Assembly (NCBI GenBank): GCA_002070275.1
Contig: MWCY01000001.1
Coordinates: 1 to 64,000 of the forward strand
Origin: Candidatus Hydrogenedentes bacterium ADurb.Bin170
GTDB lineage: Bacteria; Hydrogenedentota; Hydrogenedentia; Hydrogenedentales; CAITNO01
DNA length: 64,000 bases
Direction of reading: 5' to 3'
Position 1 is the first letter of the stretch; each line of letters starts with the position of its first letter. A program made the translations under genes and the position numbers. Shown here one piece after another: positions 30,121 through 41,539 of the stretch. A model generated the notes under the pieces. That model was not told the origin of the DNA, ran no database searches, and was given only the letters and a program-made list of their open reading frames with translations.

Positions 30121-30146
30121 TCGTTTTTATTGCGGGTCAAAAACTG

Positions 30147-30187
30147 ACTGCGGTGTGTCTGTGCGACATGCCGCAGTTTTCTTTTTT
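30147..30187 (+). terminator. rho-independent terminator after the Gfo gene
   Basis: ACTGCGG (30147-30153) pairs with CCGCAGT (30171-30177), with an 17-nt loop, followed by TTTTCTTTTTT. It closes the plus-strand TIM-barrel/Gfo unit. Confidence 0.75.
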
Positions 30188-30211: not shown

Positions 30212-30793
30212 TCAGGAAGGCTGCTCCTGCTGCTTCCTTTTTCGTTGCGCGATGAACGCATTGACGATGGCGGTGCGAACCTGCCCGCCCATAGGACTGC
30301 CCGTATAACCGTCCAAAACTTTCAGATCAATTTTAGAGCCGCGCCGGTAATAATATACCCATACAGGGGCGTAGTAAAGCAGCGAATCTTCCGTTTTACC
30401 GATGAGAGGTTTCGAACCGCGCCGCCGGAGAAAGTAACGAAGGAGACCATGCCTTCCTTTTTTATCCGCTTCATCCGGAGAGAGGATTACTGGAAGGCAT
30501 TCGCCTTTTTCTTCACGTTCTTCCAGAATGTCAACACGCTCAAACAGCGCAAAGCCCCCGAAGTTTGCATCTACAGAAACCCAGCCCTGGCTTTGTATTT
30601 CCCCGAGAGAGAGAGCAAAGCGGACGGCATAGGCAGGAAGCCAGAGCAATTCTACGGAAGCAGGCAGTCCGTCTGTACCCATTTTGGCGGGACGCCTGCG
30701 GATGAGACCATAGAGATTCCTGATCCCGGTGCGATAAAACAGACGGCGCGCTTCATCCCGGGGGATACGCAGCGGAAGGAAAAGACCGGTCAC
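30212..30793 (-). CDS. unknown protein with a duplicated module, SSS-operon gene 4
   Basis: A 193-residue protein, GTG start, 6 nt after the stop of the 101-residue gene. I do not know its family. It contains two similar modules: LLWLPAYAVRFALSLG followed by WVSVDANFG, and LLYYAPVWVYYYRRG followed by LKVLDGYTG. The pattern (L-W/Y-x-P-x-aromatic, then V-D-x-x-x-G) resembles the repeat seen in some membrane-associated zinc-ribbon and PepSY-like proteins. The ends are strongly basic (QRKRKQQEQPS). No obvious membrane helix. It closes the symporter operon. Confidence 0.6.
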   Translation of the reverse strand: MTGLFLPLRIPRDEARRLFYRTGIRNLYGLIRRRPAKMGTDGLPASVELLWLPAYAVRFALSLGEIQSQGWVSVDANFGGFALFERVDILEEREEKGECLPVILSPDEADKKGRHGLLRYFLRRRGSKPLIGKTEDSLLYYAPVWVYYYRRGSKIDLKVLDGYTGSPMGGQVRTAIVNAFIAQRKRKQQEQPS

Positions 30794-30799
30794 AACAGA

Positions 30800-31105
30800 T
30801 TATCTGCGTGTGGCTTGCTTGAACTGGCGCCAGCCGTACGCGACCCAGCCTCCGCCGATACTCAGCAGGGTTAGTCCGCACACAGCATTAACAGTTGCGG
30901 CACGCACATTCCCTTCAATCCCCAATGTGCCCAGCAGAACAGGAATTCCCAGCGCAAAAAGGAAAAGCCCCACTGCAATATTGGTTTCCCCGTCCCGCTT
31001 TTTCATACATTTAGGATCATCGGCAGGCGCTGTCCCTTCGCAGCTACAACAGGTGTCTTTGCTTACTTTCGCATCAGATTCAATAGTGTCCGGTGTGTTG
31101 TTCAT
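30800..31105 (-). CDS. small membrane protein with Cys cluster, SSS-operon gene 3
   Basis: A 101-residue protein with two predicted membrane helices (IAVGLFLFALGIPVLLGTLG and VNAVCGLTLLSIGGGWVAYG). The N-terminal hydrophilic part holds four cysteines in CCSC and a later PKC, which could bind a metal or be redox active. GGGAATT lies just upstream of the ATG. It is 9 nt after the 94-residue gene, consistent with one transcript. No family recognised. Confidence 0.6.
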   Translation of the reverse strand: MNNTPDTIESDAKVSKDTCCSCEGTAPADDPKCMKKRDGETNIAVGLFLFALGIPVLLGTLGIEGNVRAATVNAVCGLTLLSIGGGWVAYGWRQFKQATRR

Positions 31106-31114
31106 ATCAATTCC

Positions 31115-31399
31115 CTATCTGAAATACCAGTAAACAAAAACGTGGGGGAGCATGGAAACGACAGTCCACAGGCGGAGATCTGTCCAGATGGATTTATTGG
31201 GCCGCCCTTCATTCACATAAGATTCCTTGAGAATAACACCGACCCAGATCATGGTACCCACAAAGAATGACATGGCGGCGATAGTTGCCCAGGGTTTGTA
31301 AATAGGTGCTAGCAGATGGTTGATGGGGTGGAAAATTTTGCTTAAGATCGGATAAAAAATAATGGCGCAGTATTTTTGCAGCAGCGTTTCTAAATGCAT
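31115..31399 (-). CDS. small two-helix membrane protein, SSS-operon gene 2
   Basis: A 94-residue protein whose start overlaps the symporter stop by 1 nt (TGATG). Two hydrophobic segments are visible: IAAMSFFVGTMIWVGVIL and, at the end, LWTVVSMLPHVFVYWYF. In SGLT-type symporters of related length a last membrane helix follows an LxGLTWG-type sequence. Here that sequence ends the symporter polypeptide, so this small protein may supply the missing helix or act as an accessory subunit. That role is inferred. Confidence 0.65.
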   Translation of the reverse strand: MHLETLLQKYCAIIFYPILSKIFHPINHLLAPIYKPWATIAAMSFFVGTMIWVGVILKESYVNEGRPNKSIWTDLRLWTVVSMLPHVFVYWYFR

Positions 31400-32961
31400 C
31401 AGGAATTCCTTTCCTCAAGGGCGGCTTGCGCTTCGGAGCTGTGAACCACAGAACCCCAGGTAAGACCTCTGAGTTTTTCTTCCGGTTCAGCCGGGGTAAG
31501 CAGGCTGACCACAACCGTTACGACAAGGGAAAAGACAAATGACCACCAGGCAACAAAGAGGAAAGGTTCACTCGAAGTGAAAAGCCCGGGGGTGTAATTA
31601 AGAATAAAGCAGAAGATTACGCCCAATGCCAGCCCGGCAAGACCGCCCCACTGGGTTGCCCGGGGCCAGGTGATGCCAAGCAGAAGAATCGCAAGGGTCG
31701 GTCCCTGAAACATGCTCAGAATTGTTTGGGTGAAAACGTAAATGCTTTCCCGGTCGGCAATGGGCTTTGCCAGAATCGCCGTCGTGATGATCAGAAAAGC
31801 GGTAAAGCCACGCCCCATGTTAAGCGCGCCTTTCTCGCTCAGCGGCTTGCACTTGAAAAGTCGCAGCCCCTGACCCCAGATATCGGTGATAAAGATCGTG
31901 CTTGCCGAGTTCAATGTTCCGGAGATGCTCGACATAAGCGCTGCAAAAAGGGCGGCAAACATGAGTCCGCGCAGTCCTGTCGGAAGGAGCAGACGGATCA
32001 TTTCAGGTACGGCGCGGTCGGCTTCTTCAACGGGAAGGTGCGGAACCAGAATCAATGCACACAGACCGGGAAGTGCCACCATCAGCGGAATCATGGATTT
32101 CAGAAATCCGCCCAGAAGCATACCGCCTTTCGCATCCCACTCTGTCCGGGCACCGAGGGTACGCTGAACAATGACCTGATTTCCGCTCATGTATGCTATG
32201 GCAAGAACAATTCCCAGACCGAAGATTATGCCAGTCCAGGGGAAGGGACCTGTCGTGTCGTGCTCAAGCAGAAGGGTGAAATGCTGCTGGAATTCCGGGC
32301 CCTTTGCCAGTACCTGTTCACGCAGTGCGCTCCAGCCGCCGACTTCCCAAAGTGACAGGGCGAGAAGTCCGAAACCGCCAACATACATAACGACCAGCTG
32401 AACTACGTCGGTAAACACGACTGCCGTAAGTCCGCCGGAAAACGTGTACAGACCGGTGACGATTGCCATCAGCCATACCGACCACTTGGCGTTCCACCCA
32501 AGAACGGTATGCATTAGCTTGTCTGCTGTAACCCACAGCATGATGGCGAGCATAAGGAAAAGCACCACCGCCCAGATAGCAGCGTTCAGGAACTGTACTC
32601 CGGCATTGTAGCGGCGTCCCAGAAACTCGGGGATCGTGAAGACACCGGTACGCCAGAAATAAGGCACAAAGACAAAGGCGGCAAAGACCATGGCGGGCAT
32701 GGAGCCCATCCAGTCGAAGTTGGCGGCCGATACACCATGCCGGAAAGTTGCACCGGCAACAGCGACAAAGTCTGTGGCACCGATATCACTGACAACGATG
32801 GAGAAGCCGATTGCCCAGAAGGGCAATGCCTTGCCGGAGATGAAAAAGTCTTCCGCATTACCGATATAGCGTGTGCAGAAGAGACCCAGGAGGAGCGTGC
32901 CGAGCATATAGACAAAAATAATGGAAACGTCTATATTGCTCAGTCCGATGATGTTTTCCAT
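31399..32961 (-). CDS. sodium:solute symporter (SSS/SGLT family)
   Basis: 520 residues from the ATG at 32961 (site GGAAGG); the frame stays open to 33099 but this adds a non-membrane extension. About 13 membrane helices are visible. Family signatures: FFISGKALPFWAIGFSIVVSDIGATDFVAVAG near helix 1-2, GFGLLALSLWEVGGW, and GLRGLMFAALFAALMSSISGTLNS. It imports a solute, probably a sugar or sugar acid, with sodium. It is the first gene of a four-gene minus-strand operon and lies between two Gfo/Idh/MocA genes. The C-terminus lacks the final helix seen in longer relatives. Confidence 0.92.
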   Translation of the reverse strand: MENIIGLSNIDVSIIFVYMLGTLLLGLFCTRYIGNAEDFFISGKALPFWAIGFSIVVSDIGATDFVAVAGATFRHGVSAANFDWMGSMPAMVFAAFVFVPYFWRTGVFTIPEFLGRRYNAGVQFLNAAIWAVVLFLMLAIMLWVTADKLMHTVLGWNAKWSVWLMAIVTGLYTFSGGLTAVVFTDVVQLVVMYVGGFGLLALSLWEVGGWSALREQVLAKGPEFQQHFTLLLEHDTTGPFPWTGIIFGLGIVLAIAYMSGNQVIVQRTLGARTEWDAKGGMLLGGFLKSMIPLMVALPGLCALILVPHLPVEEADRAVPEMIRLLLPTGLRGLMFAALFAALMSSISGTLNSASTIFITDIWGQGLRLFKCKPLSEKGALNMGRGFTAFLIITTAILAKPIADRESIYVFTQTILSMFQGPTLAILLLGITWPRATQWGGLAGLALGVIFCFILNYTPGLFTSSEPFLFVAWWSFVFSLVVTVVVSLLTPAEPEEKLRGLTWGSVVHSSEAQAALEERNS

Positions 32962-36838: not shown

Positions 36839-39800
36839 CTACTGCTCAAATTGCATGCAGTTCAGGGAACGGTTGTCTCCCGGGAAAAAGACGGCTTCCC
36901 TGTCTGAAAAAGCATGAACCCGGCTGCACGCCTCCAAAGGAAGCATTTCATCCGAATAGATAAGCCACATTCCTTTGCTTTGAACCACTGGTATGCCGTT
37001 TACAGAAAGGGAGCCGCATCCGGACAACGCCAGAATTTTATTCTCCGGGTTCAGCAGAAGAGCGGAGGGCGCCGCATATGTATATTCAAATTGAAACTGC
37101 AGGCCATCGTAAGCAACGCTGACTGTTCCCGGCGTATTTTCCCCTGTAACAGGAAAAAGACTGATCAGCCTGTTTTCCCCGGAAGGAACAAGGGATGTCC
37201 GCCAGATTCCAGAGGTGTTGGAGACAGGCAGAGGGCTGGAGAAGCCAAGCATTTTCAGAAAGGGGAGATAGAGGTTTTGACGGGGATCAGCAGTCAGGTG
37301 CCGGTCTTTTCCGAAGAGATCGGCGGAGACGGCACTTTCCCAAAGAAGGGGTGACCAGTAAATTGCCCCGGCGCCGCACGGAATTGCATAAAGCGTAACA
37401 GTGCCTTCAGTCAGGCATAAAGTCGCCGTCTCCGTCTTTATCCGGGGAACAGGTAGTCCCTTTGCGTCTCCTGTTTCTGCCAGAAACGTGGAGCCCAGAA
37501 ATTGCCTGTACCGTTCCTGATTTCTTTGTCCCTGCGGATTTATGCCGGGATCACCGGAAAGAAGAACTGCCGCTCCCCGTATCGCATAGCCTTGCATCAG
37601 AGACAGTGTTTCATCTGAAAGCGCATAGGCTGCCGGAAAAATAATAGCCTTCGGCAGATTGTCCTGAAGGGTGGTGAGGGCGTTTTCGCTGACAACGTCA
37701 AAGGGTATATTTGCAGCAAGAAGGCAGTCCAGTGCATTCAACATAACTTCCAGCGAAAAGCTTTCAGGCGCCCCGCTGCGCCAGCCGTCCGACAATACAA
37801 ATACGATATCGGCCGGTTCATGCTGCACCGTAATCATTCGGTTCATACCCGCCAGACGCGACCAGAGGGAAAGAACCGGCTTCGGCCGTGACGGATTTGC
37901 CCATACAACGCCCCAGGGAAAGATGCGATCCGGATCATCCCGCCAGCACCAGTTTTGTATCTGGCTGAATCCCAGTGCCCAGGCATGATGCACAATATCC
38001 CAGAAAAAACGAAGCTGTTCCTCTTCGCTCCGTCGGATGTGGTAATGAGTACCGCCCCGTTCCTCAGCCCAGGCATCATGGGTTTTTACACCGAACTCAC
38101 CCACATGCAGTGCTTTGCCTTCCCGGCGCATGTCATACATGCGTGCGGTAGCGGCAAACCGTGCCCTGTCGAGATTAGGACGGTCAAAATATCCGAAATT
38201 GGAAGCATACTGCCCGCCCAGACTGTTACGAAGATCAATACCGGAAAAAGGATGCTGGTAGTATTCACTGGTGATGGGGTGGTGCGGATCCTCTTCCCGG
38301 ATGGCAACGATGAGCGCCTGAATCCAGCGATTCATCAGAAGGGCTTTAAATTCGTTCAGATCTCTGGCATGCAGGTCATACCAGCCCTGCGCCGCATACT
38401 CCTGTACAGGCACAGCGCCAGGAGCCGGGAATCCTTCGCTTTTCCACGCCTCATTCAGACTTGCAGCATCGGCATAACGTGTCGCCAGAAACTGGTTCCA
38501 AAGGGCACGTATATCTTCCGTATCCGCCAGATCCAGCCTGAAATCACCGTTCAGATAATAAATCAGATCAGGTACATTCTTGTATCTTTCGGCAAAACTG
38601 CGACAAAGAGCCTGTTGCTTTTTTAAAGTATCGTTGTCGATGCACACATTCTTGCCAATGAGCAGTCCTGCCATATAGGTCAGCCTCTGATCCGCACAGA
38701 GTTGGATAAATCCGTCGAAAAAGCGCCAGTGCTCTTCGGTATACTCATAATCTGCCGGACAAAGTTGAAGCATTTCAGCAACCGTTAACCCGGACTGCTT
38801 CATCAGTTTCAGGTCCTCGCTCCAACTGACCGGCGAATGAGAGGGCGAAAGGAAAACAGAAGACCAGAGGTCGGTGCCGAAACGACAGGACTCCGGCGCG
38901 TTACGGCAGGCAGCAGGGAGGCGGTTCAGGCGGTTTACCACAAAACCTGTTGTTCTTTCGTCGCACAAAAGAGTTCCTTCATAGACACGAAGGACAATGC
39001 TGCACAAAGCGGGAAGGGAATCGCTTTCCGGCAGGGTAAATGCCCAGCTGGTCGTTACAACCTCTCCCGGTGCGAGAGCGACCTCCTGTTCAGGACGATC
39101 CGTCAGTGCCGCGCAGAACAGGTCATCAACTGCCAGAGAAACTCTCAGAACACGCTTCTCCTTTGATGTGTTGCGGACTGATGCACTGAGGGATCCTGAC
39201 TCTCCCGGCTGATAGGAGACATAAGCAGTGCGTAGCTCGGAGATCGTGACGCCGGCACGGAGGCGCAGAAGCGCTTCTCTGTAGGCATCAGGTGCCAGCG
39301 CAGGAAAATTCAGATTGTCCACGCCAAAAAGCGCCCAATGCGAGTCTTTGAAAAAGCCCTGATGATTGAAAACAAGTGTGCCCGGGCAGGGAAGGTATTC
39401 TTCCGGAGTTGCGAAGGTCGCCAGAGGACTGATATGCCCATTACCCGACAACTGCGCCGTGGCTTCGAAACCATGGAGTGCGGGGGGAGGCTCGGAGTTT
39501 CTGCCTGACTCTGTTTGTGCATAAAAAGCATAGGCATCGGCAGAAGACGTAAAGCGGCGATCAGGACTGAAGATTTGTAACTGTTCTTTTCTGACAACGA
39601 GTCCGTCGCCCGGTTTGCCGTAGTGTGCATTGATGCGGATTTCTTCGGGAATTGCCGCACAGGTAACGGAATCAAACCACATGGTACCCTGAATATGATG
39701 CAGCCCCGCCTGAAATACGGTTCTGTCTGTTTGCGGATGAATTGTCACTGCGGCTTCATGCCGCATCCAGTCCGACGCCTTGCCGACCTGTGCGAAATCA

Positions 39801-40522
39801 GTAAAATCGAGGATGGCTCCTTCCCGGTCGTATTGGTAAACAGCAAGATAGGCATAGCCTCTGCCCAGAAGCGCATCCGTTTTCAAATGGGCTCCGATGA
39901 GATAATGGTTGCCCGGTTGACAGCCCAGAACGCATTCCCAGCTGCCGGTTCCGCCGTCGAGACTGCTGAGTGCATAAGCACAGGCTGCTCCGGTGTAAGA
40001 TACTTCGGTAGTGATGTCTGCATATGCCGGGTTATGACTGATCCAGCAGGAGACCGGCGATTCGAAATCACCGCCCGGCACAGCGGAATGTTCCGGATTT
40101 CTGGCGATGGACGCCGCATTCTCCAGAAAATCTGTCTGTGTTTTCCAGGCACCCTGATTTTCAATCACCAGCGCATCAAAAGCATAGCCGCCTGAGGTCA
40201 AGAGGTCACCACCTTTGTGCAGAAAGGAAATGAGCGCATCCGCTGCCGCAGCCGGAAAAGAGGCGCCTGTTGGAATCAGCAGAAGATCGAAGTGGTCCCT
40301 TGAAAAGCGAGTCGGGTTATTCAGGTCTTTTAAGCCTCTACGTTCCATCTGAAATCCGGGCAGCCCGGCGACCATGTTTTCCCAGAAATCCGGTTCCGGA
40401 GTAATGGCAGGCGCAGGCATGCCGGGTTCATGAAAGAGAGCAATTCTATATGGTTCTGCATAAGTGCCTGATGATAGCAGCAGAAGCACGGCGATAAAAG
40501 AAAATTGGTATTTTAAAAGCAT
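36839..40522 (-). CDS. large exported GH42-like multidomain protein
   Basis: 1227 residues from the ATG at 40522, where the signal peptide LLKYQFSFIAVLLLLSSGT begins. The frame stays open to 41047, but that part overlaps the plus-strand TIM-barrel gene. Layout: amidotransferase-like domain (25-118), carbohydrate-binding-like domain (150-300), Ig-like domain (430-530), GH42-like barrel (about 548-890), a beta-galactosidase trimerisation-type domain (about 903-1090), and a beta domain. The catalytic region has LNGDF at 658-662 and GEFG (E809). The acid/base Glu of GH42 is replaced by Asp660. Substrate unknown. Confidence 0.78.
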   Translation of the reverse strand: MLLKYQFSFIAVLLLLSSGTYAEPYRIALFHEPGMPAPAITPEPDFWENMVAGLPGFQMERRGLKDLNNPTRFSRDHFDLLLIPTGASFPAAAADALISFLHKGGDLLTSGGYAFDALVIENQGAWKTQTDFLENAASIARNPEHSAVPGGDFESPVSCWISHNPAYADITTEVSYTGAACAYALSSLDGGTGSWECVLGCQPGNHYLIGAHLKTDALLGRGYAYLAVYQYDREGAILDFTDFAQVGKASDWMRHEAAVTIHPQTDRTVFQAGLHHIQGTMWFDSVTCAAIPEEIRINAHYGKPGDGLVVRKEQLQIFSPDRRFTSSADAYAFYAQTESGRNSEPPPALHGFEATAQLSGNGHISPLATFATPEEYLPCPGTLVFNHQGFFKDSHWALFGVDNLNFPALAPDAYREALLRLRAGVTISELRTAYVSYQPGESGSLSASVRNTSKEKRVLRVSLAVDDLFCAALTDRPEQEVALAPGEVVTTSWAFTLPESDSLPALCSIVLRVYEGTLLCDERTTGFVVNRLNRLPAACRNAPESCRFGTDLWSSVFLSPSHSPVSWSEDLKLMKQSGLTVAEMLQLCPADYEYTEEHWRFFDGFIQLCADQRLTYMAGLLIGKNVCIDNDTLKKQQALCRSFAERYKNVPDLIYYLNGDFRLDLADTEDIRALWNQFLATRYADAASLNEAWKSEGFPAPGAVPVQEYAAQGWYDLHARDLNEFKALLMNRWIQALIVAIREEDPHHPITSEYYQHPFSGIDLRNSLGGQYASNFGYFDRPNLDRARFAATARMYDMRREGKALHVGEFGVKTHDAWAEERGGTHYHIRRSEEEQLRFFWDIVHHAWALGFSQIQNWCWRDDPDRIFPWGVVWANPSRPKPVLSLWSRLAGMNRMITVQHEPADIVFVLSDGWRSGAPESFSLEVMLNALDCLLAANIPFDVVSENALTTLQDNLPKAIIFPAAYALSDETLSLMQGYAIRGAAVLLSGDPGINPQGQRNQERYRQFLGSTFLAETGDAKGLPVPRIKTETATLCLTEGTVTLYAIPCGAGAIYWSPLLWESAVSADLFGKDRHLTADPRQNLYLPFLKMLGFSSPLPVSNTSGIWRTSLVPSGENRLISLFPVTGENTPGTVSVAYDGLQFQFEYTYAAPSALLLNPENKILALSGCGSLSVNGIPVVQSKGMWLIYSDEMLPLEACSRVHAFSDREAVFFPGDNRSLNCMQFEQ

Positions 40523-40648
40523 GTTGTTTGTTCCGAAAAGAACTTTGAAATAAAATGGCGGGCAGGATGCCCGAAGCGGTATTATCTTACATGAAAAGAA
40601 CGGTTCCTTTAATCTTGCCAGTGAACAGCGACAAAAAAGGAAATATGC

Positions 40649-41539
40649 ATGGACACACAGCAGAAGAGAAGTCGACGGGAATTCATAGGACAAACCATTG
40701 CTGCAGGTACCGCATTGGGACTGATGCCAGCTGTTGCGCGCTTCGTGCAGGCGGAAGAAGAAAAAGTCGCACCGAAAATTTCTTTCGTCACTGCTAATCT
40801 GGTGGCGCAAGTGACCGGTTTTCGGTTTAAACTGGAGAACTGGGGCGATCAGCACAACAAAACTGTTGCCGCCACAGATGCCGCTGCCTGGGAAAAGATC
40901 TGTAAGGAAATTGCCGGTCTGGGTTTTACTGCAGTGGAAGTATGGGAAGCGCATGCAGCCCCTGAATCCATGGACAGAGAGAAAGGGCGGGTCTGGAAAG
41001 CTATTCTTGATGATCATGGATTGAAAGCCATCGGGTATGGCGGTCATTTATCGCCGGAAACAGTGGAAATTTGCCACTGGCTGGATATCCCGCAGATTAA
41101 CGGAGGGATCGGAAAGAATACACCCGAGGAAGCTACGGCACTTTGCGAAAGATCGGGCATCCGTTTCAATACGGAAAATCATCCGGAAAAAACCGCGGAC
41201 GAAATCCTGAAAGCCGTTGGCGGCGGCAATGAATGGCTGGGTGTGTGCATTGATACGGGATGGCTCGGTACGCAGGGAGCCGCCGGCCCGCAGATCATAC
41301 GGGAATGTGGTGCTTTCGTGCGCCACACCCACATTAAAGATGTGGAAGCACCGGGCGCACATTTGACCTGTCTGTTGGGCGATGGAACGGCTCAGGTGGA
41401 AGCCTGTATGGCGGCTCTCGCTGAAATAGGCTATGACGGGTGGTATTCCTGGGAAGATGAACCCGAAGACCGGAATCCCCTGCTGTCGGCACGGCGGAAT
41501 TATGAATGGATCTTGTCACGCATCGGACAAAAGAGCTGA
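40649..41539 (+). CDS. Tat-exported sugar phosphate isomerase/epimerase-like TIM barrel
   Basis: A 296-residue protein with the Tat motif SRREFIG, followed by TAIAAGTALGLMPAV-type hydrophobic residues, and GGAAATATGC upstream of the ATG. Barrel motifs: VEVWEAH, ENHPEKTADE (Glu), VCIDTGWLGTQG (Asp), VRHTHIKDVEA (His/Asp) and YDGWYSWEDEP. It is divergent from the GH42-like gene and only 7 nt upstream of the M15 peptidase gene. With the 35.8 and 51.1 kb copies it makes three exported relatives in the window. Confidence 0.85.
   Translation: MDTQQKRSRREFIGQTIAAGTALGLMPAVARFVQAEEEKVAPKISFVTANLVAQVTGFRFKLENWGDQHNKTVAATDAAAWEKICKEIAGLGFTAVEVWEAHAAPESMDREKGRVWKAILDDHGLKAIGYGGHLSPETVEICHWLDIPQINGGIGKNTPEEATALCERSGIRFNTENHPEKTADEILKAVGGGNEWLGVCIDTGWLGTQGAAGPQIIRECGAFVRHTHIKDVEAPGAHLTCLLGDGTAQVEACMAALAEIGYDGWYSWEDEPEDRNPLLSARRNYEWILSRIGQKS

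Follow-up and report, generated by a model that had tools for sequence, protein, structure and literature searches.

Gene organization of the locus

Four genes on the minus strand (Table 1), referred to here as SSF, S94, S101 and S193, lie together in the window, which is the whole 64,000-nucleotide stretch of DNA that was analysed and lies on a contig in a metagenome-assembled Hydrogenedentota genome (G000). When the open reading frames were re-found, all four genes were recovered at the coordinates and spacings given in the initial annotation, with the SSF stop overlapping the S94 start by a single nucleotide (TGATG), 9 nt between S94 and S101, and 6 nt between S101 and S193. The 520-residue version of SSF fits the start of its relatives while a longer ORF of 566 residues does not. 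The terminator-like hairpin in Table 1 was identified as a consensus match only.

Table 1. Positions of the four genes and associated features in the window
Feature	Position	Strand	Description
SSF	31399-32961	minus	520 aa; putative SGLT-type sodium:solute symporter with 13 predicted helices, without the 14th
SSF codons D59, D64, D83	32713-32787	minus	Invariant aspartates, aligned with hSGLT1 N78, H83 and E102
SSF cytosolic C-terminal tail	31402-31497	minus	Residues 489-520 conserved; K496, Q512 and L515 invariant
S94	31115-31399	minus	94 aa; two-helix membrane protein of an unnamed family
S94 last helix	31121-31177	minus	Residues 75-93; matches the 14th helix of SGLT-type paralogs
S101	30800-31105	minus	101 aa; two-helix membrane protein with an invariant R-D-x-E ahead of helix 1
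S193	30212-30793	minus	193 aa, GTG start; soluble, two hairpin-plus-helix modules
Terminator-like hairpin	30146-30178		14-bp hairpin and T-run past the S193 end, between convergent genes

About a dozen SSF matches were found in the window genome by profile search, and none of the small proteins S94, S101 and S193 had a family match above cut-off. PADLOC returned no match for the operon and a defence system was thereby ruled out as its identity. An ORF of 1402 residues that is without annotation here (36839-41047, minus strand) is also located near the operon in the window.

Conservation of the four genes

Across the candidate phylum Hydrogenedentota the four genes are conserved together as a unit. 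About 45 loci share the order SSF-S94-S101-S193, a recurrence far beyond chance; the loci compared were the window, 40 that were fetched and four more (L103, L216, L219 and L220). SSF, S94 and S101 were adjacent and in constant order at all loci with contigs that extend over the three, and S193 was next in line, contig permitting, in all loci except L069 (G052), where it was relocated to another contig, as it was in the sister genome G055. Among 68 Hydrogenedentota genomes, S94 and S101 were present in an identical set of 54 and S193 in 53, nearly always as single copies, and the rare double matches look like fragments of one gene. Identity to the window proteins ranged across relatives from 94 to 57% for SSF, 77 to 38% for S94, 71 to 27% for S101 and 76 to 26% for S193. 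The small genes therefore co-occur and are co-linear with the symporter, and the opposite pattern of small genes mostly located without it was looked for across the 68 genomes and is not what is seen.

The 14 genomes that lacked S94 were searched with SSF. Two of these (G009 and G047) contain an SSF ortholog that ends at or beside a contig end, and two others (G044 and G037) contain a divergent ortholog of 46-47% identity followed by a different small gene (L212 3435-5524 and L213 2091-4085, respectively). The small gene of G044 encodes two hydrophobic stretches and the C-terminal end ...MIVIYLIF, the G037 gene begins in a similar way, and neither S101 nor S193 was found in these two genomes. 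No SSF above 36% identity was present in the remaining ten. Wherever the contig reaches far enough, the SSF clade was thus seen only with an adjoining small gene.

Distribution outside the phylum was assessed by a scan of 84,980 species genomes with one pattern and by a plasmid search. The scan indicated a distribution nearly confined to Hydrogenedentota, with one of its 34 loci labelled Omnitrophota, and neither S193 nor S94 was found in 72,556 plasmid records. A complete four-gene operon is located in a genome labelled Candidatus Omnitrophota (L103 3080-6107), which reflects either a mislabelled bin or transfer.

The symporter

SSF is by sequence an SGLT-type sodium symporter of the SSS family, with matches to PF00474 (E 1e-61, 209 bits against a cut-off of 22.8) and TIGR00813 (253 bits against 184), and it is predicted to be sodium-coupled. 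It aligned with vSGLT and with hSGLT1 (profile residues 9-504, E 7e-89), the latter alignment reaching hSGLT1 residue 563 just ahead of the loop to the last helix. SGLT-type transporters have 14 helices in one chain, and SSF has 13 hydrophobic segments followed by a conserved tail of about 30 residues; its C-terminus consists of LRGLTWG, about 18 further residues and then the stop. The expectation that the protein would end at this sequence, where its paralogs run on into a last helix, was thus borne out. In a tree set against 14-helix paralogs from Hydrogenedentota, the operon SSFs and those of G044, G037, G047 and G009 formed one clade (36 of 36, support 1.0).

The residues N78, H83, E102, Y290, K321 and Q457 are those to which the sugar moiety binds in SGLT2, and SGLT1 conserves them (PMC10803289). 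SSF has D, D, D, Y, K and Q at these positions, and both the three aspartates and the retained tyrosine, lysine and glutamine were found throughout the 32 aligned SSFs as well as in four further ones, while most of the paralog sequences keep N/H/E/Y/K/Q. The Na2-site region (I60, S344 and S345) is largely conserved. In SSF only the symporter domain was found, without the STAC and kinase domains that are fused to it in SLC5/STAC sensor kinases. Orthologs in L077, L071, L073 and L217 contain 70-170 additional residues, which in L077 form an insertion within the loop that follows the sixth hydrophobic segment, with no Pfam domain match.

S94 and the terminal helix

Two hydrophobic segments were predicted in S94, which ends in ...WTDLRLWTVVSMLPHVFVYWYFR, so that two helices are encoded directly after SSF as had been proposed. 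In SGLT-type paralogs from the same genomes, the chain runs on beyond the SSF end point into a loop and a 14th helix, for example ...SWNYWDVIHTAAVLLLILSVYLYFTG or ...ASLKLWFIIFGAVFLVLYWHFW. When the S94 profile was compared with a 596-column profile of these paralogs, the best site was the 14th helix, C-terminus on C-terminus, with a score of 34.2 and a probability of 40%, and the next best site scored 16.4. Against the 13-helix operon SSF profile the best S94 score was 17.0, and S101, used as a control against the 14-helix paralog profile, scored 21.6 at another site. One in 1000 column shuffles scored 34.2, elsewhere on the profile, and with trimmed columns the S94 score was 27.1, with one in 400 shuffles higher. 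The inter-helix loop of S94 is basic and would face the cytosol by the positive-inside rule, and we infer that the last helix has the same direction as in SGLT.

It is therefore plausible, with moderate support from these profile comparisons but not proven, that S94 supplies the 14th helix in trans. The part of the initial annotation that described a detached helix holds in that the helix of the paralogs is absent from SSF and the S94 profile fits it, and falls short in that a plain HMM built on the 14th helix failed to distinguish S94 (best 10.1 bits) from other helices (best control 9.4 bits). A model of the pair was obtained from L101, where SSF and S94 are in frame across one TAA that was read as Gln, and relatives entered the alignment with SSF and S94 in separate rows; the read-through was a modelling device and makes no claim on the organism. 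The joined model was poor (pLDDT 57.3, pTM 0.59). S94 had no sequence match in the PDB.

A serious possibility, although we place it short of even odds, is that S94 is an accessory protein that stabilises or inserts SSF in the manner of MAP17 or the DUF485, DUF4212 and DUF3311 proteins and replaces no 14th helix, its likeness to that helix being a convergence of membrane anchors that end in Tyr-x-Phe. The plain HMM result at noise level fits this explanation, as do the small genes already known beside SSS genes (DUF3311-mctP, PMC9100948), the presence of DUF4212 in 11 of the 68 Hydrogenedentota genomes and the existence of SSS domains with 13 helices (PMC7918813). Convergence would account less readily for a profile match that falls uniquely on the terminal helix, ends where that helix ends and is absent against the 13-helix SSF profile, and DUF4212 is itself unrelated to S94.

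S101 and S193

Two hydrophobic segments were also predicted in S101, in agreement with the two helices first assigned to it. A CCSC/C cysteine cluster is present in the window protein as described, although it is confined to this genus and was ruled out as a metal site for that reason; the conserved residues are R37, D38 and E40, ahead of the first helix. A relative of 244 residues (L067 3873-4604, G058) contains PASTA (PF03793, E 6e-21, three stretches) between its two helices. PASTA domains act outside the cytoplasm, and the inter-helix loop of S101 is therefore probably periplasmic with both ends cytosolic.

S193 has no hydrophobic segment. Its halves align in register, sharing W-P-x-Y ... 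VD-x-x-(T/S)-G, with a half-to-half score of 19.7 compared to a maximum of 16.7 in 100 shuffles, and the AlphaFold model consists of a long hairpin and a helix, twice (pLDDT 92.9, pTM 0.86). Both the repeat score and the doubled fold agree with the duplicated module read earlier from the sequence. In the predicted structure, conserved arginines are located on a helix. No relative of S193 was found in Pfam, NCBIfam or the PDB, and no PDB fold matched with an E value below 0.001, the top TM-scores near 0.15 being meaningless.

A soluble S193 with conserved arginines on a helix would also suit a regulatory function, for sensing and not for feeding, in which SSF, S94 and S101 would respond to the solute or to sodium, with S193 as the cytosolic relay of the signal. 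SSS domains do act as sensors in CbrA and MxtR (PMC7918813), and the PASTA domains of the S101 relative could sense cell-wall fragments. We consider such a function unlikely, as the unit includes no kinase, response regulator or DNA-binding domain, sigma-54 activators make up only five of 64 neighbour genes, and SSF keeps the Y, K and Q of the SGLT sugar site.

Genomic neighborhood and substrate

The immediate neighbour genes of the operon vary among loci. In the window the flanking genes encode two Gfo/Idh/MocA proteins with twin-arginine-like N-termini, as the initial annotation had noted, although relatives of these were near the operon in only five of the 40 other loci; they are not conserved neighbours and were ruled out as partners.

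In eight genomes (G020, G027, G042, G051, G057, G058, G063 and G067) the next gene after S193, with no change of strand, encodes a carbohydrate deacetylase of the YdjC family (PF04794), and G052 and G055 have one adjoining their relocated S193, giving ten genomes in total, each with one to four YdjC genes. These cases fall mostly within one family and are related by descent rather than independent, and most operon loci, including the window, have no adjoining YdjC. The relocated S193 is also beside a sulfatase in two species of one genus (L214 1094-4669 and L215 4586-8090), in addition to YdjC, and the sulfatase has an SGSH-like C-terminus as tested in L214. In G044 the small gene is followed by a GH84 beta-N-acetylglucosaminidase.

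The YdjC neighbour, the GH84 gene of G044 and the three aspartates of SSF together suggest, as a lead, that the substrate is an N-acetylated or amino sugar or a close derivative. The YdjC family member ChbG deacetylates diacetylchitobiose (PMC9402603).

Proposed function

The reading that we prefer, at a probability of about 0.5, is that the four genes specify a sodium-driven transporter of several parts that takes up an amino or N-acetyl sugar, in which SSF transports and S94, S101 and S193 are its partners. SSF would be the transporting subunit, its chain stopping after the 13th helix, and S94 would dock beside it and supply in trans the terminal helix that the paralogs hold in-chain. S101 would be a further membrane subunit, its two ends cytosolic, and S193 a cytosolic partner, perhaps bound to the conserved SSF tail or to the S101 N-terminus. 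A sugar with an N-acetyl group or an amine would be imported and then handled by a YdjC-type deacetylase.

A stronger form, which is tentative and which we regard as doubtful, is that an SLC5-type symporter has here turned into a machine in which several subunits are obligatory. In this form its terminal helix would be split off into S94, two further subunits would couple SSF to the membrane surface and the cytosol, and the three-aspartate site would be remodelled for an amino or N-acetyl sugar.

Ordinary operon conservation by vertical descent, with products that do not interact, would fit the near confinement to Hydrogenedentota in the one-pattern scan and is improbable given that the flanks are reshuffled while the four genes hold together and that S94, S101 and the SSF clade are jointly present or absent.

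Comparison with known systems

SSF resembles SGLT1 and SGLT2 (SLC5A1 and SLC5A2) and vSGLT in its alignment and in the retained Tyr, Lys and Gln, and differs in that it is without the 14th helix, has Asp in place of Asn78, His83 and Glu102, and is linked to three small genes.

Gene pairing of an SSS transporter with a small protein is found in several systems. VC_2705 symporters consist of an SSS gene with an adjoining small two-helix gene, and the ActP gene is paired with YjcH (DUF485). SSF scored 57 bits against the TIGR03648 (VC_2705) cut-off of 320.75, and DUF4212 (PF13937) was ruled out for S94 by the absence of a match among S94 members and a profile comparison score of 12.7. A separate set of DUF4212 small subunits, of VC_2705 type, is encoded in 11 of the 68 Hydrogenedentota genomes (L252-L262). 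The ActP-YjcH pair is alike in the idea of gene pairing, with SSF far below the ActP cut-offs (5-32 bits against 750-1099), and DUF485 was ruled out since no S94 member matches it. The same idea applies to MctP, where a DUF3311 gene adjoins mctP (PMC9100948). DUF3311 (PF11755) matched one of 41 S94 members weakly (E 0.002, below cut-off), no Hydrogenedentota genome had a match above cut-off, and the best match to an S94 gene reached 19.9 of the 30 bits required, so that this family was also ruled out. The operon differs from these small-gene pairs in its three unnamed partners phylum-wide, its missing terminal helix and its altered sugar site.

It counts against the preferred reading that 13 helices and no known partner are common among SSS proteins; a number of 13 is described for CbrA and MxtR (PMC7918813). 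The usual description of prokaryotic SSS transporters is that of a single polypeptide, and the word 'subunit' is absent from a 2021 review of them (PMC7918813). With the four-gene unit, three unnamed protein families would gain an initial functional context, and a natural split of a LeuT-fold transporter would provide a way to ask what the terminal helix does.

In the literature SGLT2 needs MAP17, whose binding site on human SGLT2 is the last helix (PMC10203128, PMC10803289). The two cases are alike in pairing a small membrane protein with an SGLT-type transporter, which in SGLT2 occurs at the last helix. MAP17 has one helix and is located beside an intact last helix, whereas S94 has two and may replace it, and the four-gene unit would be a bacterial parallel to SGLT2-MAP17.
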